The notes under the pieces: model-generated | Seen by the model: only the letters and a program-made list of their open reading frames with translations | Databases searched by the model: none | Told to the model about the DNA's origin: nothing | Part shown: positions 47,506 through 63,799 of the stretch, in pieces | How positions within the stretch are numbered: the stretch's first letter is position 1 | Layout of the letters: every line of letters starts with the position of its first letter | Made by a program: the position numbers and the translations under genes | NCBI GenBank assembly: GCA_905182815.1 | Contig: CAJJCX010000001.1 | Coordinates: 124,001-188,000, forward strand | DNA length: 64,000 nt | Source of the DNA: an uncultured Candidatus Thioglobus sp. | GTDB taxonomy: Bacteria > Pseudomonadota > Gammaproteobacteria > PS1 > Pseudothioglobaceae | Direction of reading: 5' to 3'

Positions 47506-48621
47506 TTAAACTTTCAGTAATAGCCTAGCTGGATCCTCTAAAGCATCTTTGATTGAGATCAAAAACTGAACGGCTTCTTTGCCATCGATAATTCTGTGAT
47601 CATAGGAGAGCGCAAGATACATCATCGGCCTGATGACTATTTCGCCGTTAACAACGACTGCGCGCTCTTGCGTTTTATGCATTCCAAGGATTGCGCTCTG
47701 AGGTGAGTTCAAGATTGGCGTTGAAAGCAGCGAGCCAAAAACGCCGCCATTGGATATGGTGAACGTGCCGCCGCTCATCTCTTCAATTCCTAAGGTTCCG
47801 TCCTGCGCTCTAACTGCGTAATCAACGATGCCTTTCTCGATGTCGTGCATTCCCATCTTGTGCGCATCACGAAGCACAGGAACAACCAGTCCTCGATCTG
47901 AAGAGACAGCTACTGAAACGTCGCAGTATGCGTGATAGACAATGTCATCGCCATCAAGGTATGCGTTTACTGTTGGGAATTTTTTTAGTGACTCGACTGC
48001 CGCTTTAACAAAGAACGACATAAAGCCTAATTTAACGGAGTACTTCTTCTCAAAAGCCTCTTTGTAGCTTTTTCTCATAGCCAGTATCTCAGTCATATCA
48101 ACTTCATTAAAGGTTGTCAGCATGGCTGTATTTTGAGTCGCAGAGTGAAGTCTTTTGGCTATTGTTTTGCGAATGCGGTTCATTGGAACTCTTTCTTCCA
48201 TTCGATTACTCGTTGGCTTAGATGCGCTTGGCTCAGGAGAGTTTATAGGCTCCTCTTGAACATTCTCCTGAAGGTTTATTTCAGGAGGCTCTTCACTAGC
48301 TTCAACTGGAGATTCTTTTGCTTCCTCTATTGGAGCTTCTTTAATAATTTCTTTAGGCGCTTCAGTTTTTTCAGCCGTCATTTCAGCGTCATCATCTAAA
48401 AGAGCAAGAACCTGCTGAGCGTTAACTGTTTCACCTTCCTCCGCTAAGATTTCAGTGAGAATACCTGCCTCTTCAGCGGGAACCTCTAAAACAACTTTGT
48501 CTGTTTCAATTTCAACGATGACGTCATCAACCTCAACATAGTCTCCAGGTTTTTTATGCCATAAAGCGACAGTCGCTTCGTTTATAGATTCTGGGAGGAC
48601 GGGTACTTTTACTTCTTTCAT
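47506..48621 (-). CDS. sucB: 2-oxoglutarate dehydrogenase E2 (dihydrolipoyl succinyltransferase)
   Basis: 371 residues. It transfers succinyl from E1 to CoA in the TCA cycle. The N-terminal lipoyl domain has [17 protein letters not shown] (lipoylated Lys in TDK), then a long Glu/Pro-rich linker, a short E1/E3-binding motif ([16 protein letters not shown]), and the catalytic domain ending with [16 protein letters not shown] (active His and Asp). Start ATG 48621 overlaps the sucA stop (ATGA), indicating coupling. Intact. The E3 gene is not adjacent. Confidence 0.95.
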
Positions 48622-51322
48622 TTTTTAATGCTCCTAGCAGTACCCATAGTTTGAATACCTAACGCTTTTTCAATGATATAGCTTTGGTTAATGTTGTGCT
48701 GCCTAATGCTGCCCTCTGCAGGAGCAGAGTAAAGGTCTCTCGCAACGACATGAAGGGTTTGTCCTTTAACAATGCTTTGCATAAAGTTATGCCTGGAAGT
48801 GTACCACGCGCCCTGATTAATTGGCTCTTCTTGGCACCAAACGATATCTTTTGCATTTGGAAATTTCTCAAGCTCTTTGATAAGCTGCTCTTCTGGGAAT
48901 GGGTAGAGCTGCTCAAGTCTCAGTATTGCAACGTTATTAAGCTGCTCATCTTGACGACGCGTTAATAATTCATAAAATAGTCTTGCCGCTACACATAATA
49001 ACGCGGTCAACTTTTTTAGGCTTGATGTTGTCATATTGCTCTTCGTAAACATCTCTAAATCTGCCTTCAGTAAACTTATGCAGTGGTGAAGCCGCTAGAG
49101 GGTTTCTTAAAAGACTTTTTGGCGACATAATAATTAGAGGTGCTCTAAATTTTCTTAATATTTGACGTCTCATCAAATGAAATATTTGCGACGCGGTTGA
49201 TGGCACGCAGACCTGCATATTGTGACTCGCACAAAGCTGAAGAAAGCGCTCAAGCCTTGCAGATGAGTGCTCAGGCCCTTGACCTTCAAGTCCATGAGGG
49301 AGAAGCATAACTAGGTTAGATAGGCGCCCCCATTTAGCCTCAGCTGAGGCAATAAATTGATCAATAATCGCTTGAGCGCCATTAACGAAGTCGCCAAACT
49401 GAGCTTCCCAAATAACCAGTGACTCAGGGTTTGCAGTGGCGTAACCGTACTCAAAACCAAGGGCCGCCTCTTCAGATAGAATTGAGTCAAATATTTGAAC
49501 TCTTCCTTGCTTGTCACTAATGTTTTGCAGCGGCGTGTAGTCCTCGTTTGCTAGTTGATTATGAAGCACTGCGTTACGATGAAAAAATGTTCCTCTTCCA
49601 GTGTCCTGACCTGTAAGCCTAATTGGCGTTCCAAAGTCAGTAAGACTTGCGTAGGATAGAGTTTCAGCAAAGCCCCAGTCTGCATTAATTTTTCCATCAG
49701 CCATCTTTTGTCTTTCGGACATCATCTTCTTAACGCGCGGGTGAATCTCAAAGTGACTCGGGACTTTTTGAAGTTTTTTGTTTAAGTCTTTAATTTGCTT
49801 TTTACTGATAGCGGACTCATAAGGGTCGAGCCAAGTAGCATCAAAGTAATCTTCCCATAGCATTTCCCAGGCTCTCTTGTTTTTATCTTTGGGCTGAATA
49901 ATATTGTAAGCAACTCTCTCACCTTCTTTTAGTTCTTGACGGTAATCGCTGATCATTGCATCAACTTCTTTTTGCTCAATGACGCCTTGCTTCATTAGAG
50001 TGGTCGCATAGTTTGCGCGCGTAGTCGGTTTCTTTCGAATTGCTTCATACATTAAGGGCTGAGTCACTGCTGGCTCATCGGCCTCATTGTGGCCATGTCT
50101 TCGATAGCACATCAAGTCGATAACCACATCTTTTTTATACCTCATACGGTAATCGAGCGCCAACTTGGTGATAAAGCTAACCATTTCTGGATCTTCAGCG
50201 TTCACATGAAATACCGGCGCATTAATCATCTTGACAACGTCAGTACAATAATCCGTTGACCTTGCGTCATCCTGCTTGGAGGTAGTAAAGCCAATTTGAT
50301 TGTTGATAATAATATGAACCGTGCCCATCGTTCTGTAGCCTCTTGACTGAGACATGTTTAAGGTCTCCATCACGATTCCTTGGCCAGAAAAAGCGGCATC
50401 TCCGTGGATAAGCACGGGGAGAATTTGTTGACGCTCAGCGTCCTCAATCTTGTCCTGGTGATAGCGCGCATAGCCCTCAATCACTGGGTTCACTAATTCA
50501 AGGTGAGAAGGGTTAAACATGAGCGCAAGATGCACATCCTCTTTGCTCGTTTTAATGTCTGAGGAAAAACCCTGGTGATATTTAACGTCACCCGTTTGAT
50601 TCTTTCCAAGTCCAAGCTCTCCCGCAAACTCTTTAAATAAGCTTTCAGCCCTCTTACCCATAATATTAATTAGGACATTAAGGCGTCCTCTATGAGCCAT
50701 GCCTAGGCATATCCTTTTCATTGAGTGCTCTCCTGAGTGCTCAATTAAAACGTTTAATAGTGGGACTAAGGTGTCACTCCCCTCTAAAGAGAAGCGTTTT
50801 TGACCGACATACTTATTATGTAGAAATTTTTCGAATACTTCGGCTGCAGTTAGCCTTTGAAGTAAGCCATTTTTTATAGTCCGCTGAATTTTCTTTTTCA
50901 AGAGACATGGTTTCAATTTTAGTTTGAACCCACTTCCGCTCTTCAAGGTTGGGAATGTTCATATACTCAACACCGAGACTGCTGCAATAAGTTTTATTAA
51001 GAGAAGTAAAAAGATCTCTCAAGGTGCTGCAGTTTGGGCCTTGGTATGAGCCCATATCAAAAGTCTTGTCAAGGTCAGAATCACTTAAGCCAAACTCTTC
51101 AAGAGTGAATGGAGGCGTTGAGTGGTGCCTTGGCCTCTCTAAAGGGTCTAGCCCTGCTCTTAGGTGGCCTGAAAATCGAAAGGCATAAATTAAACGAAGA
51201 ACTCCAAGCTGAGCAGCACTTTGACTGACAACTTTAGTATTGGAAGTTGATTCAAAATTGTTTTCACCATAATCAATAAAGCGGTTAATCACATCATCGT
51301 GTGAGCTAGAATTATTATTCAT
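48618..51322 (-). CDS. sucA: 2-oxoglutarate dehydrogenase E1 (frameshifted)
   Basis: About 900 residues when joined. It is the thiamine-diphosphate E1 of the TCA complex. The N-terminal part [13 protein letters not shown], the ThDP core [59 protein letters not shown] and the C-terminal [15 protein letters not shown] are clear. Breaks are near 50880, where an A6 run reads as A5, and near 48985, where one base joins CSGK to LFYELLTRR. Both are simple extra bases in an essential-type gene. Confidence 0.93.
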
Positions 51323-51735: not shown

Positions 51736-52752
51736 ATGAATAATTTTTTAAAAATTCTTCAAGACAAAGATCATATCCTTGCTGATGGCGCAACGGGTAC
51801 GAACTTATTTGAAATGGGGCTCGAGACAGGAGACCCACCTGAGCCTTGGAATTTAGATTATAGAGACAGAATCCGCTCCCTTCACCAAGGCTTTGTTGAT
51901 GCAGGCTCTGATTTATTTTTAACCAATAGTTTTGGCGGCACTTCTTTTCGGCTCAAACTCCACAATCTTGAAAGCAGGGTATTTGAATTAAATAAAGCTG
52001 CTGGAACTGTTGCAAGAGAGGTTGCAGATCGTGCAGATCGCTTAGTCATTGTTGCAGGGTCAATGGGGCCAACGGGTGAAATGATTGAGCCTCACGGCTT
52101 AATGACCTCTGCTGAGGCAACTGAGGCTTTTAAGGCGCAAGCTGAAGGTCTTGCTGAAGGAGGCGTTGACGTTTTGTGGCTGGAAACTATGTACTCAATG
52201 GAAGAGTTGGAGGCTGCTCTTGATGCCGTTAAAGATATTGGCTTGCCAGTCTGCGCGACTATGAGTTTTGATACTGCAGGTAAAACAATGATGGGCATTA
52301 CTCCTGCAAATCTTGCTCTAAGAGCAAAAGGAGCTTAACCTTTCAGGGTTTGGGGCAAATTGCGGTGTTGGAGCGCCTGACTTGTTAGCAACAATTAATG
52401 ACATATCTCGAAATGTGGAATCAGGTACGGTTGTAATTTCAAAAGCAAACTGCGGCATTCCTCAGTTTCATGATGGAAAAATTCTTTATTCTGGAACAGA
52501 GAAACTAATGGCTGAGTACGTTCAAATTGCAATGAACTCTGGCGCAAAAATTATCGGTGGCTGCTGCGGAACAACGTATGCACATGTTCGGGCAATGCGT
52601 AAAGCAATGGACCAGCATCAAGTAACCGCGCCTCCAACTTTAGCTGAAATTGAAAGGCGGTTGGAGTTATGTCTAATGGGTCTAGAGCTATCTTTGAAGG
52701 TGATGATTCAAAACCCACTAAAGAGCGCAGGAGCAGACGCTCAAGGTCTTAA
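51736..52752 (+). CDS. bmt: Betaine-homocysteine S-methyltransferase-type enzyme (frameshifted)
   Basis: About 338 residues. It transfers a methyl group from glycine betaine (or a related donor) to homocysteine, giving methionine. LADGATGTNLFEMGLETGDP, NSFGGTSFRLKLH and WLETMYSMEELEAAL are family blocks. Zinc ligands are Cys in KANCGIP and the pair in GGCCGTTYAH. Breaks are near 52325 and 52665. The restored end is MSNGSRAIFEGDDSKP with a basic Arg/Ser tail. It stands beside the methylamine region, consistent with use of methylated osmolytes. Mammalian-type BHMT and bacterial homologues cannot be told apart fully from this alone. Confidence 0.85.
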
Positions 52753-52845
52753 AAGCAACAATTCATTTAATTAATTAGTTGTTTTTGTGATAAGATAATT
52801 TTCTTTATAGTGTAATTTTATTTATTCTAAGTAAATTATTAATTC

Positions 52846-53496
52846 ATGGCTTCAATTAAAAATACTGCGCAAAAAGAACAAAGCGTCTCCATAGTAAACA
52901 AAAATCTTCCTAGTTTTGGAACCGATAAGCAACTAGAGGCTTCGATTGGAAAGCAAGTCAGAATCTCTCGAAAAAATGCTGGCGTTACTTTGCAGCAACT
53001 CTCAAAGCAGTCACTTCTTTCTGCAAGCATGCTCTCAAAAATTGAGAATGGTCAAATTAGCGCTTCTTTAAAAACAATTCAGCTGATCTGTCACGCCCTT
53101 AATATTTCAATTACGTCACTATTTAAACAGCATGACAAAGACGTAGAGCCAACCTTTATTAAGTCAGGTAATGGTTTAACAATTGAGAGGGCAGGATCAG
53201 ATGAGAGTAGGCACTACCAATTACTCGGTCACAACGTCAGCGGCTCTCTTAAGGTAGAGCCTTGCCTTATTACGGTAACTTCAAGAGATTATGATTTTCC
53301 TGACTTTCAGCATAAAGGGGTTGAGTTTATTTATATGCTCAAAGGTGAAATGGATTATTACTATGGAACTGAGATATATCACTTCCAGAAGGGTGACTCG
53401 ATATACTTTGATTCTGATAAGCCGCACGGCCCTAAAAAAATCATTAGTGATGAGTGCCAGTTTCTAACGGTTATTTGCTCAAATAATTCTGATTAG
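52846..53496 (+). CDS. XRE-cupin transcriptional regulator
   Basis: 216 residues. The helix-turn-helix ASIGKQVRISRKNAGVTLQQ, SKQSLLSASMLSKIENGQIS is followed by a C-terminal cupin (FIYMLKGEMDYYYGTE, GDSIYFDSDKPHGPKKI). This PuuR-like architecture often senses amines or amino acids through the cupin. It directly precedes the GS-like/mgs operon with a 383-nt gap containing the strong promoter, so it is the best candidate regulator of that operon (inference). Confidence 0.88.
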   Translation: MASIKNTAQKEQSVSIVNKNLPSFGTDKQLEASIGKQVRISRKNAGVTLQQLSKQSLLSASMLSKIENGQISASLKTIQLICHALNISITSLFKQHDKDVEPTFIKSGNGLTIERAGSDESRHYQLLGHNVSGSLKVEPCLITVTSRDYDFPDFQHKGVEFIYMLKGEMDYYYGTEIYHFQKGDSIYFDSDKPHGPKKIISDECQFLTVICSNNSD

Positions 53497-53648
53497 GTTG
53501 GCTTTAAGTTTTAATAATTTAAACTTTCTTTTTCTAAAATTATCCTTCCCTAAACCCTCTCTAAATTAAAACTTTTTTCTTGTTTTTCTGTAATTATTTA
53601 GAAGAAAATCAACACTTTATTATATTTCTTTAAAATCAATAAAATTTC

Positions 53649-53678
53649 TTGACAATGGAATATCATTAGGCGTATACT
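53649..53678 (+). promoter_or_regulatory. Sigma-70 promoter of the GS-like/mgs operon
   Basis: TTGACA (53649-53654) and TATACT (53673-53678), 18 nt apart, form a near-consensus promoter. Transcription should start near 53685, giving a 195-nt leader. The sequence GTATACTCAAA at the -10 is repeated at the tdm promoter. Confidence 0.75.
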
Positions 53679-53686
53679 CAAACTTT

Positions 53687-53860
53687 AATTTGCTGTTACT
53701 CCATCTATTTGGAGTCAAAAAGAGTCATTTATATAGTAATTTATTTGACCTCTATTACTAAAACGGCAGCAAATTCATTAGTGTTTCTGTTTTGGTTTAT
53801 ATCTTACGAATCAAAATAAAAGCATGCATAGGGGGTAAATCTTTAATAGAGATTTTTTTT
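53687..53860 (+). ncRNA. Structured 5' leader, candidate riboswitch or attenuator
   Basis: Almost the first transcribed bases (53687-53695, AATTTGCTG) pair perfectly with 53767-53775 (CAGCAAATT), closing a domain. Two G-U pairs can extend this stem inward. Inside are a 6-bp hairpin (698-703 with 710-715, ACTCCA/TGGAGT) and a 7-bp hairpin (734-740 with 754-760, TAGTAAT/ATTACTA). Downstream, AAATCT (53837-53842) pairs with AGATTT (53850-53855) running into a T8 tract, 9 nt before the GGAGAG ribosome site. A closed multi-stem domain plus a terminator-like hairpin is the layout of a riboswitch. It matches no class I know. All folding is by eye. Confidence 0.5.
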
Positions 53861-53879
53861 ATTTTTTCGGAGAGATTAA

Positions 53880-55355
53880 ATGACAGATTTAGAACAGCAC
53901 GTTAACGAGCCCGGTCGCGACAAACTTGTAAAAGAAGTCAAGGCTAAGATCGAAGCATTGGGCGTTACATATGTATATTATCAATTTGTTTCAGTTACAG
54001 GACGCATTGTAGGTAAAGGTATTCCTGCCCGCCATTGGGAGAGATTAGCTGAAAAAGGATTTCAACTAGTATATGGCTCAACAGCCAACTTATTTGTAGA
54101 TCGTCATGGAGACTATATTGGTTACGGCCCTGAGTCTTCTGAGCTTGTAGGTCTTCCAGATCCTGACACATTTTGTCAGCTTCCATGGGACAAAAGAGTA
54201 GCGCGCGTTTTTTGTAGACTTTATAGAAACCGTGAAGAGCGTGAAAATCCAGGTGAAGCATTAACGTCAGATTGTCGTGGTAACTTATATAGACAACACA
54301 AAGAATTCCAAGACCAGTATGGGTTAGATATGCGCTGCGGCACGGAGCCAGAAATGATGTGGCTAAAGCGCGGTGAAGATGGTCAGCCAAACGGCGGAGT
54401 AACAAAGCCGAACTGTTACCACATTGACCAGTTTGAAGAGTTACGCCCTGTCTTTATGAAAGTTATAGAATACTCAGAGCAAATGGGTCTTGACATTATT
54501 CAAGGTGACCACGAAGATGCCCCGGGACAATTAGAGCTTAATACCCAGTTTGATGACGTATTAAGAAATGCCGACCGATTGACGACTTATCGTCAAATTT
54601 GTGCGCAAGTTGCTCGTGAGTTTGGTTTAATTGCATGCTTTATGAGTAAGCCTTTTATGGGAGTATCTGCATCAGGTTGTCACCATAATATGTCTTTATG
54701 GGAAGGCGGCAAAGATGTATTCCATCCAGAAATTGCTGGCGAAGGAGAGCTTCCAGGAATGCCTGGCAACTTTATGTATAAAGAGGGCGGCAAGAACACA
54801 TTTATGCCGGACCCTTCAATCGATGAAAAGATGCCTGGTCCAATTGGCCTTCAGTCAATCGGCGGTGTTATTAAGCATTTACCCGCACTAACTTCAATTG
54901 GCTCTTCTACAGTGAATTCTTATCGCCGTCTTTGGGATACTGGCTTTTGGGCGCCAATTTTTGCAGATTGGGGTTATCAAAACCGTACATGTGCACTTCG
55001 CGTTTCTGCGCCAGGTCGTTTTGAATACCGCTCTGTTGACTCAATGGTTAATCCTTACTTAATGGGATCAGCGCTATTAAAAGCGATGGGTGACGGTATT
55101 GATAATAACCTTGATGCAGGTGAGCCTGAAGAGCGCAATATCTATGCAGCTATGGAGGCAGGAAAGCAAGTTAAGAAGCTTCCTATGTCTTTAGGTGAGG
55201 CATTAAATGAGTTAGAAAATGATGAGGTAATTAAATCATCGATGCCAAATGAAATGTATAAAGTTTTTCATCATTATAAGACAGATGAATGGGAAAAATT
55301 TAATGCCACAGTTACAGATTGGGATTTAGAGACTTATATAGACTGCTTGCCATAG
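53880..55355 (+). CDS. gmaS: Glutamine synthetase-family ligase, probable gamma-glutamylmethylamide synthetase
   Basis: 491 residues. The GS catalytic features are present: metal-binding Glu156/Glu158 in GTEPEMM, Glu212 and Glu219 in HEDAPGQLEL, His in GCHHNMSLW (near 268), and the substrate/phosphate Arg region NRTCALRVSAPGRFEYRSVD. Being followed by mgsABC, it most likely joins methylamine to glutamate with ATP. It is longer than known GMA synthetases (about 440 residues) and its N-terminus (YVYYQFVSVTGRIVGKGIPA) differs from the ones I remember, so another amine is possible. It is not a type I GS. SD GGAGAG lies 5 nt ahead. Intact. Confidence 0.7.
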   Translation: MTDLEQHVNEPGRDKLVKEVKAKIEALGVTYVYYQFVSVTGRIVGKGIPARHWERLAEKGFQLVYGSTANLFVDRHGDYIGYGPESSELVGLPDPDTFCQLPWDKRVARVFCRLYRNREERENPGEALTSDCRGNLYRQHKEFQDQYGLDMRCGTEPEMMWLKRGEDGQPNGGVTKPNCYHIDQFEELRPVFMKVIEYSEQMGLDIIQGDHEDAPGQLELNTQFDDVLRNADRLTTYRQICAQVAREFGLIACFMSKPFMGVSASGCHHNMSLWEGGKDVFHPEIAGEGELPGMPGNFMYKEGGKNTFMPDPSIDEKMPGPIGLQSIGGVIKHLPALTSIGSSTVNSYRRLWDTGFWAPIFADWGYQNRTCALRVSAPGRFEYRSVDSMVNPYLMGSALLKAMGDGIDNNLDAGEPEERNIYAAMEAGKQVKKLPMSLGEALNELENDEVIKSSMPNEMYKVFHHYKTDEWEKFNATVTDWDLETYIDCLP

Positions 55356-55384: not shown

Positions 55385-55410
55385 TGCCCACTTAACGGTG
55401 GGCAATTTTT
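55385..55410 (+). terminator. Attenuator-like hairpin between the GS-like gene and mgsA
   Basis: TGCCCAC (55385-55391) pairs with GTGGGCA (55398-55404), followed by T5. It would reduce read-through from the ligase gene into mgsABC, giving unequal amounts. Confidence 0.7.
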
Positions 55411-55431: not shown

Positions 55432-56370
55432 ATGTGCGGAATAGCAGGAATTATTCATAAAAAAGCTGGAAAAGGCGTAAACATTGGTCAGCAGATGACA
55501 TCAATGCTTCAGGCTTTAAAGCATAGAGGTCCAGACTCAACTGGATATGCAATGTACGGTAAAGATAATGGAAATCAAGTATTAAGATTTAAAGTTGCTG
55601 AAGCTGCTGATCTTGAAGGTAGCTATGATATTCATGCTACTATCAAAGATCGCTTGGAGACAGTTAACTCAAGACTTACTGAGTTAGGTGTTAAGGTTGT
55701 AAAAAAAGAGAGTCCAACTGAGTATGCCCATCGTTATGAAGTAGAGTTTTCAGGTGACATGAAAAAAGTTGCCGACTTTGTTGAAGATGTTGAAGGCGTT
55801 GAGATTTTATCTATTGGTAACTCACTTGAGTTAGTTAAAGACTTAGGAGATGCTTCGGTTGTTTCTAATCAGTATGGCTTAAATGACTTTAATGGTACTC
55901 ACGGAATTGGACACACTAGAATGGCGACAGAGTCTGACGTAGATATTCGCTCTGCTCACCCTTACTGGGCTTATCCTTTTAGTGACGTTGCAGTTGTTCA
56001 TAATGGGCAGCTCACAAACTACTGGACAAATAGACGCTCACTTGAGCGCTCTGGCCACCGTTTTTCATCGAACTGCGACTCAGAACTTATTGCTGTTTAT
56101 CTTGCAGATAGAATGAGTCAAGGTGACGATTTAGAAACTGCTATGAAAGGTTCAATAGACTACCTTGATGGCGTTTTCACTTATTTGGTTGCAACAAAAG
56201 ATCAACTTGGTATGGCCAAGGATGTTATGGCTGCTAAACCAATGGTTGTATACGAAGGCGAAGATATGATTGCGCTAGCTTCTGAAGAGGTTGCAATTAG
56301 AACTTTATTTGATCATCGTATTGAAACATTTGACCCATATCACGGAGAGGTAAAAGTATGGCAGAACTAA
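55432..56370 (+). CDS. mgsA: N-methylglutamate synthase subunit A (class II amidotransferase domain)
   Basis: 312 residues. The mature protein starts at Cys2 (MCGIAGIIHKKAGKG), the nucleophile of class II (Ntn) glutamine amidotransferases. KHRGPDSTGYAMYG, GIGHTRMATESDVDIRSAHP and VVHNGQLTNYW are the rest of the fold, which is split by an extra segment (about residues 60-140) seen in GlxB/MgsA-type proteins. It corresponds to the GltB N-terminal domain as a separate subunit. SD GGGAG lies 7 nt ahead. It overlaps mgsB by 13 nt. Confidence 0.85.
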   Translation: MCGIAGIIHKKAGKGVNIGQQMTSMLQALKHRGPDSTGYAMYGKDNGNQVLRFKVAEAADLEGSYDIHATIKDRLETVNSRLTELGVKVVKKESPTEYAHRYEVEFSGDMKKVADFVEDVEGVEILSIGNSLELVKDLGDASVVSNQYGLNDFNGTHGIGHTRMATESDVDIRSAHPYWAYPFSDVAVVHNGQLTNYWTNRRSLERSGHRFSSNCDSELIAVYLADRMSQGDDLETAMKGSIDYLDGVFTYLVATKDQLGMAKDVMAAKPMVVYEGEDMIALASEEVAIRTLFDHRIETFDPYHGEVKVWQN

Positions 56371-57200
56371 GGAAGGAAACGTCCCAAGAAATGGGACTTC
56401 ATGACGAGCAATTAAAAGGAAGAACTCAGAAAAAATTCTTCTCGATTGACGAAAGTGAAAATTTAACATATTTCCACTCATTTGATGTTGACACTTCTAA
56501 GAGTGCAACGATTGATGCACTTGACATGACGCCAAGAGAGATTAATCGTGAAATCAGAGAGTTAATGGAAAAAGGTATTGGTGATATTACAGTTGATAAC
56601 CCTATGTCTAGGCATGGTGTTGGTGTTGGTATCTTAAACAGACTTAACTTAACTTTCTCAGATAGTTTAGGCTATTTTGGTTGCGGCTTGATTGATGGAC
56701 CTAATGTTCATATTAAAGGTCGTGTTGGTTGGTCTTGTGCAGAAAACATGATGGCTGGAACTGTTGTCATTGACAAAAATGCTGGCTCTACGTTTGGCGC
56801 TGCTATTCGTGGCGGAGATCTTGTTTGTAAAGGCAGTGTTGGCGCTCGTACTGGTATTGATCAGAAGGGCGGCACAATTATTGTTGGCGGTAAGACAGGC
56901 GCGTTTTCTGGATTCATGATGCAGCGTGGTCGTATGATTGTTTTGGGTGATGCTGGAATGAACTTAGGTGATTCTATGTATGACGGCACTATTTATGTCG
57001 GCGGTGAAGTTGAAGAGCTTGGTGTTGACTGTGTGCAGGCTGACATGACAGAGCTTGATGTTCGTTACTTAACAGAGAAATTGGCCCTTTATGGCATGAA
57101 GACTCCTAGAGGCGTTGAGAAAATGCAAAAGCATGTTTCTGGAAAAATGTTATGGAACTACGCTAACTTAGAGCCTAATGAAAAGAAACTAATTCTTTAA
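56358..57200 (+). CDS. mgsB: N-methylglutamate synthase subunit B (GXGXG domain)
   Basis: 280 residues. The C-terminal 200 residues form the glutamate-synthase GXGXG beta-helix: GVGVGILNRLNLTFSDSLGY, GRVGWSCAENMMAGTVVIDK, GGTIIVGGKTGAFSGFMMQR, MYDGTIYVGGEVEELG. It is structural, bridging the amidotransferase and FMN subunits. It starts inside mgsA (ATG 56358 with GGAGAGG ahead), so the two are coupled. Confidence 0.86.
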   Translation: MAELRKETSQEMGLHDEQLKGRTQKKFFSIDESENLTYFHSFDVDTSKSATIDALDMTPREINREIRELMEKGIGDITVDNPMSRHGVGVGILNRLNLTFSDSLGYFGCGLIDGPNVHIKGRVGWSCAENMMAGTVVIDKNAGSTFGAAIRGGDLVCKGSVGARTGIDQKGGTIIVGGKTGAFSGFMMQRGRMIVLGDAGMNLGDSMYDGTIYVGGEVEELGVDCVQADMTELDVRYLTEKLALYGMKTPRGVEKMQKHVSGKMLWNYANLEPNEKKLIL

Positions 57201-57235
57201 TAGCGCTTTTAACAAATTAAATAAAAGGAAATATT

Positions 57236-58570
57236 ATGAGTGATTCGGAAAAACATAGACTAGGAAAAAGTTTTATCTTCCCTAAAGCAGTGATGGATGA
57301 TATTCACATCAAGTCTGATTTGGGAAGATACAGAATGAGAGGTTTCTCTCTATTTAAAAAAATTCCAACATGGGATGACTTAACTTTTATGCCAGGAACG
57401 TTAACTCGTTTTGTTATTGAGGGTTATAGAGAAAAATGTTTAACTAAAACAATTATTGGGCCAGAGGCTCCAAGACCATTAGAGCTCGACATTCCAATTT
57501 ACATTACTGGAATGAGCTTTGGTGCGTTGAGTTATGAAGCTAAAACTGCTCTAGCTCGAGGCGCTACGATGGCCGGAACTGCTACTTGTTCAGGTGAAGG
57601 CGGAATGATTCCAGATGAGAGGCGCTACTCAAGTAAGTGGTTTTATCAGTGTATCCAGTCTCGTTATGGCTTTAACCCACAACATTTACGTTTAGCTGAT
57701 AGTGTTGAGTTTTTTATTGGTCAAGGCTGTAAGGTTGGTTTAGGTGGACACCTAATGGGTCAAAAAGTTACAGACCAGGTTGCTGAAATGCGTTCTTTAC
57801 CTGCTGGTATTGATCAGCGCTCTCCTGCGAGACATCCAGACTGGCTTGGACCAGATGACTTGGCGCTAAAGATTGAAGAGATTCGTGAAGCGACAGATGG
57901 TCAGATTCCTATTCAGCTTAAACTTGGTGCAGCGCGTGTATACGATGATGTGCGTATGGCTGCTAAGACTGGTTGTGATAGTATTTATATTGATGGAATG
58001 GAAGGCGGTACTGCTGCTGGACCACATATTGCAACAGAAGAAACTGGAGTTCCAGGAATTGCAGCAATTCGTCAAGCTCGAAGAGCAATTGATGATGTTG
58101 GGATGAGCGGCAGAATTTCTTTAGTTTATGCTGGTGGTATTCGAAATGGTGGTGACGTTGCTAAAGCGGTTGCACTTGGTGCTGACGCGGTTGCGATTGG
58201 TCACTCATCGCTTATGGCGCTTAACTGTAATAGAGATATTCCTGAAGCTGATTATGAAGCTGAAATGGGCGTTAAAGCCGGTGAATGTTATCACTGTCAT
58301 ACTGGGCGCTGTCCGGTTGGTGTGGCAACTCAAGATCCTGAGCTTAGAAAGCGTCTGGATCCGGATGAAGCATCAGAGCGTGTATACAACTTCTTACATA
58401 CACTAGCAATCGAGACACAAATGATGGCTCGTGCCTGTGGCAAGACAAATATACACTCATTAGAGCCAGAAGATTTAGCTGCGCTTACTATGGAGGCTTC
58501 AGCTTGTGCACAAGTTCCTATTGCAGGTTCACAGCACACGGTTGGCCGTCCTGATATGACACGTTTTTAA
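57236..58570 (+). CDS. mgsC: N-methylglutamate synthase subunit C (FMN/FeS glutamate synthase domain)
   Basis: 444 residues of the FMN-binding glutamate-synthase barrel: ITGMSFGALSYEAKTALARG, CSGEGGMIPDER, IQLKLGAARVYDDVRMAAKT, DSIYIDGMEGGTAAGPHIAT and GADAVAIGHSSLMALNC. The iron-sulfur ligands are Cys351, Cys354 and Cys359 (ECYHCHTGRCPVGVATQ). In GltB the first two are five residues apart; here they are two. The reaction is glutamate plus methylamine (released from gamma-glutamylmethylamide) to N-methylglutamate, by analogy with MgsABC. AAGGAA lies upstream. Confidence 0.87.
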   Translation: MSDSEKHRLGKSFIFPKAVMDDIHIKSDLGRYRMRGFSLFKKIPTWDDLTFMPGTLTRFVIEGYREKCLTKTIIGPEAPRPLELDIPIYITGMSFGALSYEAKTALARGATMAGTATCSGEGGMIPDERRYSSKWFYQCIQSRYGFNPQHLRLADSVEFFIGQGCKVGLGGHLMGQKVTDQVAEMRSLPAGIDQRSPARHPDWLGPDDLALKIEEIREATDGQIPIQLKLGAARVYDDVRMAAKTGCDSIYIDGMEGGTAAGPHIATEETGVPGIAAIRQARRAIDDVGMSGRISLVYAGGIRNGGDVAKAVALGADAVAIGHSSLMALNCNRDIPEADYEAEMGVKAGECYHCHTGRCPVGVATQDPELRKRLDPDEASERVYNFLHTLAIETQMMARACGKTNIHSLEPEDLAALTMEASACAQVPIAGSQHTVGRPDMTRF

Positions 58571-59175: not shown

Positions 59176-61476
59176 ATGAGAGCTTCTAATATTAAATATG
59201 ATGGAGATTGTGAAACCTACCAAATACTTGGGGGTGAGGCAATTTCAATTGACTTAAAGAGTGGTGATTCAGTTGAAGTAGTTGATGTTGAGGGAGATCA
59301 AAGATGCAATGTTCTTGCATTTGACTCTAAAAAGTCGTCGGCCTTATCTTCTCTTAATTGGAAGTCAAAGCCAAACAGTAACTCTAATAAAATTTCCTCA
59401 GGTGATTGCTCTGGAATGCTTAAAGCGATTCTTGATGGCAAGAAAATAAAGTCAAAAGATTTTCATGCTGCAGAGCTTTTTTCTGAGTCCAGTCCCGCAG
59501 ATACCCGCCAATCCTTTAATATTAATAATGACCTCTTGTGTGTCTTTGATGCAGAGGGTGGACCAATGCTGGTTGATCAGCAAAATTCTCCCACAGAAAT
59601 TTTAATCAATGTCTCTCGTTCAAATCCGACGATTCCATCAGAGCGCCTCCCAGAACCTTTAGCAAAAATAACAAAAGAAATTCGAGTTAAAGATAGTTCA
59701 GCAGTTGCCTATAAAGTAAAGGCAGGAGAATACATTCAAGTCATCGACGTTGAGGGGCAGCAGTGCTCTGACTTTCAAGCTTTTATTGAAGACGACTTAA
59801 ATAATAATATAGAGCTTTGCCTTGACCCAACGGTGACAAGATCTCAAATGCAGGCAAGTTATCCTGCGCCAGGTACTCATGATAAGTTTTATAATCAAAA
59901 CTCAGTTCCTCTTGTCGAAGTCATTCAAGATACAGTTTGTCGCCATGATACATTTGGCTTGGCCTGTAACGCTAAATATTATGAAGATCGTGGTTTTCCC
60001 GGTCATATAAGCTGCACTGATAACTTCAATTTATCTCTCGCAGAGTATGGAGTTAAGCCAAGACGAAACTGGGCAGCGGTTAATCTCTTTTTTAATACAG
60101 CGATAGAAGAGTGCCACTCACTCACCTCTGATGTCTCTTGGTCTAGACCCGGAGATTACGTTTTATTAAGGGCTGTCAACGACCTTGTATGCGTCTCCTC
60201 AGCTTGTCCAGATGACACGACTTCAGCAAATGGATGGAATCCTTCCGATATACATGTTAGGATCTATGATAAATCTAATACTTTCCCATCGGCAACGGCT
60301 TTTAGGCCTGACCCACAATCGATACCGACTATGACTAAAGAAACTGGTTTTCATAAAAATACCTCTAAATTAACGAAAAACTTTGATAACTATAACGGCT
60401 ACTGGCTCCCACTCGAGTATGAGAATTTAGGTGCGATTAAAGAGTATTGGCAGTGCCGTGAAGCGGTCGCCATGATTGATCTTGCACCACTAAGAAAGTT
60501 TGAAGTTTATGGCCAAGATGCTGAAGTCCTAATGCAATATGCGATTACCAAGGATGTTCGCAAGCTAGCGGTTGGCCAAGTTGTTTATTCTGCGATGTGT
60601 TATGACAACGGCTGCATGATTGATGATGGAACCTTATTCCGCCTTGATGACAATAACTTTCGATGGATTGGTGGCTCTGATGATGGCGGCAAACATCTCA
60701 GGAAAATTGCTGAGGATCGTGGATTAGATGTTAGAGTTAAATCTTCAACTGATCAGCTCCACAATGTTGCGGTTCAGGGCCCTAAAAGTCGCGAGACTTT
60801 ATCAAAAATTATTTGGATACCTAAATTACAAACCACGATTGAAGACCTTAAATGGTTTCGATTTACGATTGGTAGAATTGGCGGTGAGTTTGGGATCCCT
60901 GTGATGGTTTCTAGGACTGGATATTCGGGCGAACTTGGGTACGAAGTTTTTGCACATCCAAATGATTGTGAATCTGTGTGGGACTCAATTGCAGAGGCTG
61001 GTGAGGAATTTGGTATATGTCCTTTGGGATTAAATGCTCTTGATATGCTTAGAATAGAGGCAGGTTTAATTTTTGCAGGCTATGAATTTTGTGATCAAAC
61101 TGACCCATTTGAAGCGGGTATTGCGTTTACGGTTCCACTGAAAACAAAAGAGGAAGATTTTTCCGGAAAAGAAGCATTAATTCTTCGTAAGAATTCTCCA
61201 CAAAGAGTTCTTGTTGGGTTAGAATTAACTTCAAATGAGGTTGCACTCCATGGCGATGGGGTGTATATTGGAAAGCAACAGGTTGGAGTAGTAACAAGTG
61301 CAACACGCTCTCCAATATTAAAAAAGAATATTGCACTTTGTAGAATTTCAGTATCAGAGTCAGAAATTGGTAATGATGTTGAAGTAGGAAAATTAGATGG
61401 ACACCAAAAGCGCCTTTCAGCAAAAATTGTTCGCTTTCCGTTTTATGATCCTGAAAAGACTCGAGTAAGAATGTAG
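59176..61476 (+). CDS. tdm: Trimethylamine N-oxide demethylase Tdm (DUF1989-GcvT fusion)
   Basis: 766 residues, two parts. Residues 1-370 contain a DUF1989 region: GEYIQVIDVEGQQCSDFQAF (184-203), then Cys264, His277, Cys280 (GFPGHISCTDNF) and Cys344 (SSACPDD), the Cys/His set expected for the metal site. Residues about 400-766 form a GcvT-like folate domain (CREAVAMIDLAPLRKFEVYG, GYSGELGYEVFAHP, LNALDMLRIEAGLIFAGYEF). This fusion is the known architecture of Tdm, which converts TMAO to dimethylamine and formaldehyde, the latter captured as methylene-THF. A GDSVEVVDVEGDQ half-repeat at 30-42 hints at internal duplication. Context (mgs, ABC transporter) supports the call. Confidence 0.8.
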   Translation: MRASNIKYDGDCETYQILGGEAISIDLKSGDSVEVVDVEGDQRCNVLAFDSKKSSALSSLNWKSKPNSNSNKISSGDCSGMLKAILDGKKIKSKDFHAAELFSESSPADTRQSFNINNDLLCVFDAEGGPMLVDQQNSPTEILINVSRSNPTIPSERLPEPLAKITKEIRVKDSSAVAYKVKAGEYIQVIDVEGQQCSDFQAFIEDDLNNNIELCLDPTVTRSQMQASYPAPGTHDKFYNQNSVPLVEVIQDTVCRHDTFGLACNAKYYEDRGFPGHISCTDNFNLSLAEYGVKPRRNWAAVNLFFNTAIEECHSLTSDVSWSRPGDYVLLRAVNDLVCVSSACPDDTTSANGWNPSDIHVRIYDKSNTFPSATAFRPDPQSIPTMTKETGFHKNTSKLTKNFDNYNGYWLPLEYENLGAIKEYWQCREAVAMIDLAPLRKFEVYGQDAEVLMQYAITKDVRKLAVGQVVYSAMCYDNGCMIDDGTLFRLDDNNFRWIGGSDDGGKHLRKIAEDRGLDVRVKSSTDQLHNVAVQGPKSRETLSKIIWIPKLQTTIEDLKWFRFTIGRIGGEFGIPVMVSRTGYSGELGYEVFAHPNDCESVWDSIAEAGEEFGICPLGLNALDMLRIEAGLIFAGYEFCDQTDPFEAGIAFTVPLKTKEEDFSGKEALILRKNSPQRVLVGLELTSNEVALHGDGVYIGKQQVGVVTSATRSPILKKNIALCRISVSESEIGNDVEVGKLDGHQKRLSAKIVRFPFYDPEKTRVRM

Positions 61477-62748: not shown

Positions 62749-63799
62749 ATGTCTGATCAGCAACCTGTAATTAAATGCGATTCCGTTTATAAAATATTTG
62801 GCAAAAATGCCGAAAAAATGCTTCAAAATGCAAATGGTAAGGTTGTTGCTGAAGAATTTCAAAAAGCTGGCTGTGTAGTCGGAGTTAATAATGCCTCTTT
62901 CGAGGTTAATAAGGGTGAGATGCTTGTGGTTATGGGTCTTTCAGGCTCGGGCAAGTCGACCTTGCTTCGTTGTATTTCAAGACTAACCGATGCCACTGCA
63001 GGGAATATTTATATTGAGGGCGAGGACTTATTGGCTTTAAACAGTAAAGAGCTTATCGAGCTTAGACGAAACAAAATGGGTATGGTATTCCAGAGTTTCG
63101 CATTACTTACCCCATAAAACGGTTTTAGAGAATATAGCGTTTCCTTTACAGGTTAAAGGTAGTAGTACAAAAGATAGTATTTCAAGAGCCATGGAGATGG
63201 TTGACCTTGTTGGCTTAACTGGTCGTGAGAATTATTTCCCTAGAGAGCTCTCTGGTGGTCAGCAGCAACGAGTTGGAATCGCACGCTCTCTAGCTGTTGA
63301 ACCCGATATTTGGTTCTTGGATGAGCCTTTTTCGGCGCTAGATCCGCTAATTCGTAAAGAGATGCAGGATGAATTCTTGCGTCTTCAAGCAGTATTGAAC
63401 AAAACTATTTTGTTTGTTACTCATGATTTTGATGAAGCCATTCGGCTTGCTGATCGTGTGGCTATTATGAAAGATGGCATTATCGAGCAATTGGATACAC
63501 CAGCCAATATTGTCCTTAACCCTGCCACCGAATACGTGCGCAAGTTTACAGAGGATGTTCCAAGGGAGAAGGTTCTTAAAATTAAATCAGTGATGGAGCC
63601 TGTTGGCGATGAAACAGACTTTAGTGATTTAAGGGTCTCCGAAGATGCCCTTATTGAAACTGTTGCCGAAGCTGTGCTCGGCGACCCTAAATCAGTTCCC
63701 GTACTCAATGCAAATGATGATATTGTTGGTGTTGTACATTCATCTAAAGTAATTCATGTGTTATTTGGTGAAAATTCAACACTAGAAAGCAACGCTTAA
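62749..63799 (+). CDS. tmoW: Quaternary-amine ABC transporter ATPase (frameshifted)
   Basis: About 350 residues. Walker [11 protein letters not shown]-loop VFQSFALL, signature [10 protein letters not shown], Walker B IWFLDEPF and H-loop FVTHDFDEA are all present, and a C-terminal part (about 260-350, ending [12 protein letters not shown]) resembles CBS regulatory domains of ProV/OpuAA. The N-terminal segment [17 protein letters not shown] is typical of ProV-type proteins. One extra base near 63108 ends the first frame after FALL and, if removed, gives [14 protein letters not shown]. The permease starts 10 nt later. Confidence 0.85.

Follow-up and report, generated by a model that had tools for sequence, protein, structure and literature searches.

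What does a long, apparently structured leader do in front of a GS-like gene of Pseudothioglobus: does it sense a ligand, end transcription early, or serve the mRNA in some other way? Pseudothioglobus is a member of a widespread marine lineage, and the use of methylated amines is important for carbon and nitrogen in the ocean. The question arises in the 64,000-nt stretch of DNA analyzed here (the window), where a glutamine-synthetase-like (GS-like) ligase of 491 aa (53880..55355, + strand, as are the leader elements, the regulator gene, and the subunit and demethylase genes below) is encoded by the first gene behind the leader. The first-pass annotation had proposed an undescribed riboswitch or attenuator at this place, and the leader does indeed sit before the GS-like/mgs operon as it stated. 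The best NCBIfam match of the ligase is the type III glutamate-ammonia ligase (309 bits versus a cut-off of 469.6); since its scores stay under the cut-off, the substrate of the ligase is inferred from context. Next come three glutamate-synthase-like subunits (55432..58570; mgs-like, a name also taken from context) and a trimethylamine N-oxide (TMAO) demethylase family protein (59176..61476; NF053776, 1111.4 bits, cut-off 1100). Because the latter product, a fusion of DUF1989 and GcvT, passes the NCBIfam cut-off for TMAO demethylase, the operon probably has to do with TMAO and methylamines. Genes for an OpuAC-type binding protein and pieces of an ABC ATPase lie further downstream, and directly upstream of the leader lies the gene of an XRE-cupin regulator (52846..53496).

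Several genes of the region appear broken. The betaine-homocysteine methyltransferase-like gene at 51736-52774 is split over two frames near 52336-52382, the ABC ATPase gene is split near 63117-63191, and the ORFs at 48618-51322 are apparently split too; assembly indel errors are one explanation. Between the GS-like gene and its downstream neighbor, a G+C-rich hairpin, GCCCACTTAACGGTGGGC, is followed by AATTTTT (55386-55410). In relatives, its stems have changed yet remain complementary, as in GCCCGCC/GGCGGGC, and it is possible that this element serves as a partial terminator or a processing site.

The leader itself is preceded by a promoter (53649..53678) that the first-pass annotation had placed correctly and described as near-consensus, which fits the TTGACA box at 53649-53654, the TATACT box at 53673-53678, the 18-nt spacer, and the match to 11 of 12 consensus positions. 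Transcription is predicted to start 7 nt past the -10 box. From there, the elements follow in the order of a domain clamped by a helix we call P1, a long A/U-rich hairpin (P4), a G tract, a weak A/U hairpin, a U-rich stretch, and the Shine-Dalgarno sequence. Folding of 53685-53885 was more stable than all of 200 dinucleotide shuffles (z -2.92).

The closing helix P1 is formed by AATTTGCTG (53687..53695) and CAGCAAATT (53767..53775), whose perfect complementarity, claimed earlier, holds by reading and by folding and amounts to 9 bp. The search for ligase homologues covered 83 family genomes and wider genome contigs (the best 80 of 346). At >85.5% protein identity there were 26 distinct leaders, from which L054 (no promoter match) and L049 (no leader) were removed; the remaining 24 make up alignment A2. 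P1 is present in all 24. On A2, 207 of its 216 cells are standard pairs, and when the partners are slid by one to three columns only 28-51% are paired. Four of the nine pairs have changed on both sides; while this count alone is matched by 61 of 500 shuffles, the number of doubly changed cells, 22 versus 6.9 in shuffles, was reached by none of the 500. Counted over a tree built from the coding sequences of the ligase, changes in the P1 columns sum to no fewer than 11 for the 5′ arm and 24 for the 3′ arm, the mean pairwise identity of the arms being 0.80 and 0.71, respectively (here and below, identities are means on A2 in which a gap against a letter counts as a mismatch). RNAalifold, run on the 24 leaders with no given structure, recovers P1 together with the core of P4. 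P1 shows the compensatory changes in homologous leaders that had been proposed as a check; the second inner hairpin of the first-pass annotation (53734-53760) does no better than shuffles in the six nearest leaders.

How widespread is this leader? A close ligase homologue with its start is held by 24 of the 29 genomes of the genus, and the leader precedes it in every one (24/24). Of the other five, four have no close match, and in one (G023), which meets a contig end there, the homologue begins with residue 191. Two loci (L034 and L035) are missing the ligase gene's 5′ end. We built a model, R1, from the 24 leaders of A2; as it was afterward matched against these same leaders, it is informative only for the absence of other matches. 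R1 gave one strong match per genome, always before the ligase gene, and, among the candidates scored (30 or 88 per genome in the 83 family genomes), nothing else strong, although at this depth a faint or diverged second copy may escape. The order-level search covered the same 83 genomes. Sub-threshold matches comprised one in G062 (E 0.024, 27.1 bits) and others down to ∼19 bits, partly on the leader's opposite strand. R1 gave nothing at E below 5 in 66 loci, mostly the surroundings of homologues in other groups (one locus, L087, which has 48 nt ahead of the gene, was left out), and viral contigs gave no relative. In other clades, six Pseudomonadales-like leaders and nine others fold unrelatedly (1/15 and 2/15 pairs doubly changed), and we do not take them as the same RNA. 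The Pseudomonadales-like leaders (L055, L056, L058, L060, L070, and L094; 2891-3000) have a predicted fold of their own, with 1/15 pairs and weak covariation. A literature search, conducted mostly outside subscription journals, returned no description of the leader. With helices kept by compensatory change, the structured leader is real, lacks an Rfam match, and is confined to one genus among the genomes searched.

The lack of an Rfam match agrees with the earlier view of an undescribed class: across the whole window, no family scores as high as its gathering threshold. Within 53490-53900, and up to E = 5, the matches were snoR17 (E 2.2, 18.7 versus 60 bits) and CncR1 (E 3.8, 11.3 versus 76 bits), both of which we take as chance. 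What lies inside P1 bears more directly on the ligand-sensing function that the first-pass annotation had attached to the leader, with glutamine, methylamines, or SAM as a metabolite bound by an aptamer in the P1 domain. Two internal hairpins had been drawn. Folding bears out the first, P2 (ACTCC/GGAGT, 53698..53715), while the second (53734-53760) is not kept as drawn in close relatives: in the six nearest leaders 82% of its cells are paired, which 377 of 500 shuffles equal. A different helix, P3 (AGAGTCA/TGACCTCT, 53721..53753), outlasts it there, being 97.6% paired with one doubly changed pair; these leaders vary little, however, and 87 of 500 shuffles equal the structure to which it belongs. 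When the P1 domains were folded with conflicting pairs excluded and P1 itself not enforced, two or more inner hairpins appeared near the window and in many other leaders; three leaders of one subclade (L052, L053, and L076) instead carry a single long hairpin inside P1.

In riboswitch aptamers, the nucleotides in and around the ligand pocket are the most conserved (PMC7266159). The interior of P1, however, has an identity of 0.40 versus 0.52 at fourfold synonymous sites of the ligase, a value we read as "not conserved" rather than "faster than neutral" since misalignment depresses it. Taken with the single long hairpin of one subclade, this argues that there is no conserved aptamer core of unpaired nucleotides. 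The length of the leader, its junction-like domain, and the methylated-amine context of the genes do speak for a metabolite riboswitch. Against this stand not only the changing architecture but also the single strong match per genome, before one gene only, the absence of an Rfam match at gathering score, and the two loci (L049 and L054) without such a leader. As the interior changes freely, in the manner of a structural cap, the riboswitch reading is not supported by the compared sequences, and of all the readings considered here it is the one to which we give the least credence. The case illustrates that one sequence can be enough to detect a true RNA fold, while the ligand-sensing story built on it fails when homologues are compared.

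Downstream of P1, the long hairpin P4 (53781..53825) has a core in which 87.7% of cells are paired and 5/13 pairs have changed on both sides, while its outer part is only 67.1% paired; identity is 0.71 and 0.76 in the arms and 0.41 in the loop. P4 is followed by a conserved G tract (53831..53835, identity 0.69), with AGGGGGNAAATCTT exact in 18 of the 24 aligned leaders. As a genome-wide marker this motif proved uninformative, one-mismatch copies occurring in 72 of 83 genomes; G010, a genome in which the search gave no close ligase match, also has an exact copy. A leader peptide was noted by eye as a 4-codon frame (ATG..AGG GGG TAA) and dropped, because only the six nearest leaders show it.

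One possibility, which we regard as doubtful though worth keeping in mind, is that a protein or small RNA reads the leader as a riboregulator, the 3′ block (P4, AGGGGG, the AATCTT hairpin, the U tract, and the Shine-Dalgarno sequence) serving for recognition and switching and P1 acting as a folding clamp. In its favor, the G tract, the A/U hairpin (identity 0.71), and the U tract (0.89) are all more conserved than the fourfold sites, the P4 core covaries, and in the RNAalifold consensus the U tract and the Shine-Dalgarno sequence form a weak helix made mostly of G-U pairs. Yet when the G-tract region, the one examined for a mutually exclusive antiterminator, was matched with upstream pyrimidines, the best duplex ranked within the top 5% of shuffles in only 3 of 24 leaders, and at differing places. 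Sequestration of the Shine-Dalgarno sequence by the AATCTT arm was similarly rejected, as their pairing averages 0.02 with no consistent fold, and the Shine-Dalgarno bases are on average 0.48 unpaired, with values that scatter widely. Moreover, nearness to the ribosome site alone may account for part of the conservation, which in the Shine-Dalgarno region is 0.97. The narrower version, a riboregulator confined to the genus and governing the catabolism of TMAO and methylamines, whose conserved G tract and U-rich hairpin would be read by a protein or small RNA while the filling of the clamp evolves freely, we consider unlikely.

The A/U hairpin AAATCTTTAATAGAGATTT (53837-53855) merges into T8 at 53853-53860, and the whole terminator-like, albeit weak, element ends as T8-A-T6 (53837..53867) just before the Shine-Dalgarno GGAGAG (53869..53874). 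The first-pass annotation was right about a hairpin and T8 run ahead of the ribosome site; the gap is 8 nt rather than the claimed 9, and the stem is weak. Apart from a single C-G pair, which is lost in L016, it contains A-U and G-U pairs, and it reaches -2.9 kcal/mol, ranking 178th of 336 hairpin-plus-T sites in the window, whose eight strongest (none a proven terminator) range from -13 to -22. A terminator scan asking for three G-C pairs found no site in 53480-53900, and the hairpin is absent from the RNAalifold consensus of the 24 leaders. Hence the U run of an intrinsic terminator is there, the strong G+C-rich stem is not.

That the hairpin and its U run are kept across leaders, and that the AATCTT arm pairs by preference within this local hairpin (mean 0.64), would fit a transcription attenuator in which the A/U hairpin and U8 stop some of the transcripts, to an extent set by the folding upstream. 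With so weak a stem, lying outside the consensus, and with the G tract and the AATCTT arm showing no consistent pairing with upstream pyrimidines and the Shine-Dalgarno region, respectively, this part of the earlier proposal looks improbable to us. Instead of terminating transcription, the element with T8-A-T6 may offer a U-rich site ahead of the Shine-Dalgarno sequence. A further reading works at the level of DNA: the palindrome AAATCTT-AAGATTT would be the operator of the XRE-cupin regulator, and the leader RNA incidental. It draws on the conserved sequence of the palindrome with little compensatory change (one of eight pairs changed on both sides) and on the adjacent regulator gene. As this reading leaves the covariation of P1 and P4 unexplained and puts an operator ∼150 nt downstream of the predicted start, we think it has very little chance of being correct.

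A more plausible place for DNA-level control is the promoter. Pairwise identity among the 24 leaders is 0.98 over TTTCTTGACA (53645-53654) and 0.86 over the next 10 spacer bases, conservation that is perhaps beyond the needs of a sigma-70 site. On these grounds, 53645-53664 is a candidate operator of the XRE-cupin regulator. The regulator gene adjoins all 25 loci with this promoter; it was not found within 3 kb of the same-family locus L054, which is also without a promoter match. The nearest leader outside the genus, L049, retains promoter and regulator while lacking P1, its best 5′ helix having 5 bp. Given the regulator gene at 25/25 promoter loci and the high conservation of the -35 box and early spacer, control at the promoter is the simplest source of regulation.

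The explanation we favor, held tentatively and at somewhat less than even confidence, is a lineage-specific structured 5′ UTR of ∼195 nt in which the clamp, the A/U hairpin, and the U-rich ribosome site stabilize the mRNA or help its translation, with control residing mainly at the promoter. P1 would act as a 5′-terminal clamp shielding the end of the mRNA from pyrophosphate removal and RNase E, the U-rich stretch would favor ribosome binding, and on/off control would be exerted mainly at the promoter, probably through the adjacent XRE-cupin protein. A clamp of this kind is expected to keep its pairing while its filling drifts. P1 begins at nt 1 to 4 of the predicted transcript in 23 of the 24 leaders, the start being taken from the -10 box. 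Counting against the clamp, the mean pairing probability of P1 is at least 0.5 in only 13 of 24 full-leader ensembles, 8 of the 24 leaders fail to reach a z below -1 versus shuffles, and the conserved G tract is unexplained by a role in stability. Whatever its mode of action, a covarying leader before this operon marks where to seek post-transcriptional control.

Known systems resemble the leader in different respects. With riboswitches that have an expression platform it shares its length, a closing helix, a U-run hairpin before the ribosome-binding site, and a metabolic operon; it differs in having no conserved aptamer nucleotides, a weak terminator, and a restriction to one gene and one genus among the genomes searched. 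The glnA and Downstream-peptide (glutamine) RNA motifs sit upstream of nitrogen-metabolism genes, as does this leader; unlike them, it lies in a window without any Rfam family at gathering score. The promoter side recalls PuuR-puuA, in which an XRE-cupin repressor stands beside the gene of a GS-like gamma-glutamyl ligase. Here, too, an XRE-cupin regulator adjoins a GS-like ligase gene; PuuR is even its best NCBIfam match, yet at 41.8 bits, far under the cut-off of 211, so that we do not file it as PuuR. The ompA-type 5′ stem-loop, lastly, protects the 5′ end of an mRNA against RNase E and against the removal of pyrophosphate. The 5′-terminal stem-loops of ompA and papA (compare PMC3997798 and PMC7509114) similarly place a helix at the extreme 5′ end with the ribosome site downstream, while P1 closes a domain of ∼70 nt rather than being a simple hairpin. 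PMC3997798 reports that a 5′-appended hairpin stabilizes bla mRNA and impedes RppH, and that rpsO and lacZ mRNAs gain no stabilization from sequestering of the 5′ end. By analogy with these cases, the kept pairing at the 5′ end and the U-rich ribosome site of the Pseudothioglobus leader would suit a protective 5′ clamp.
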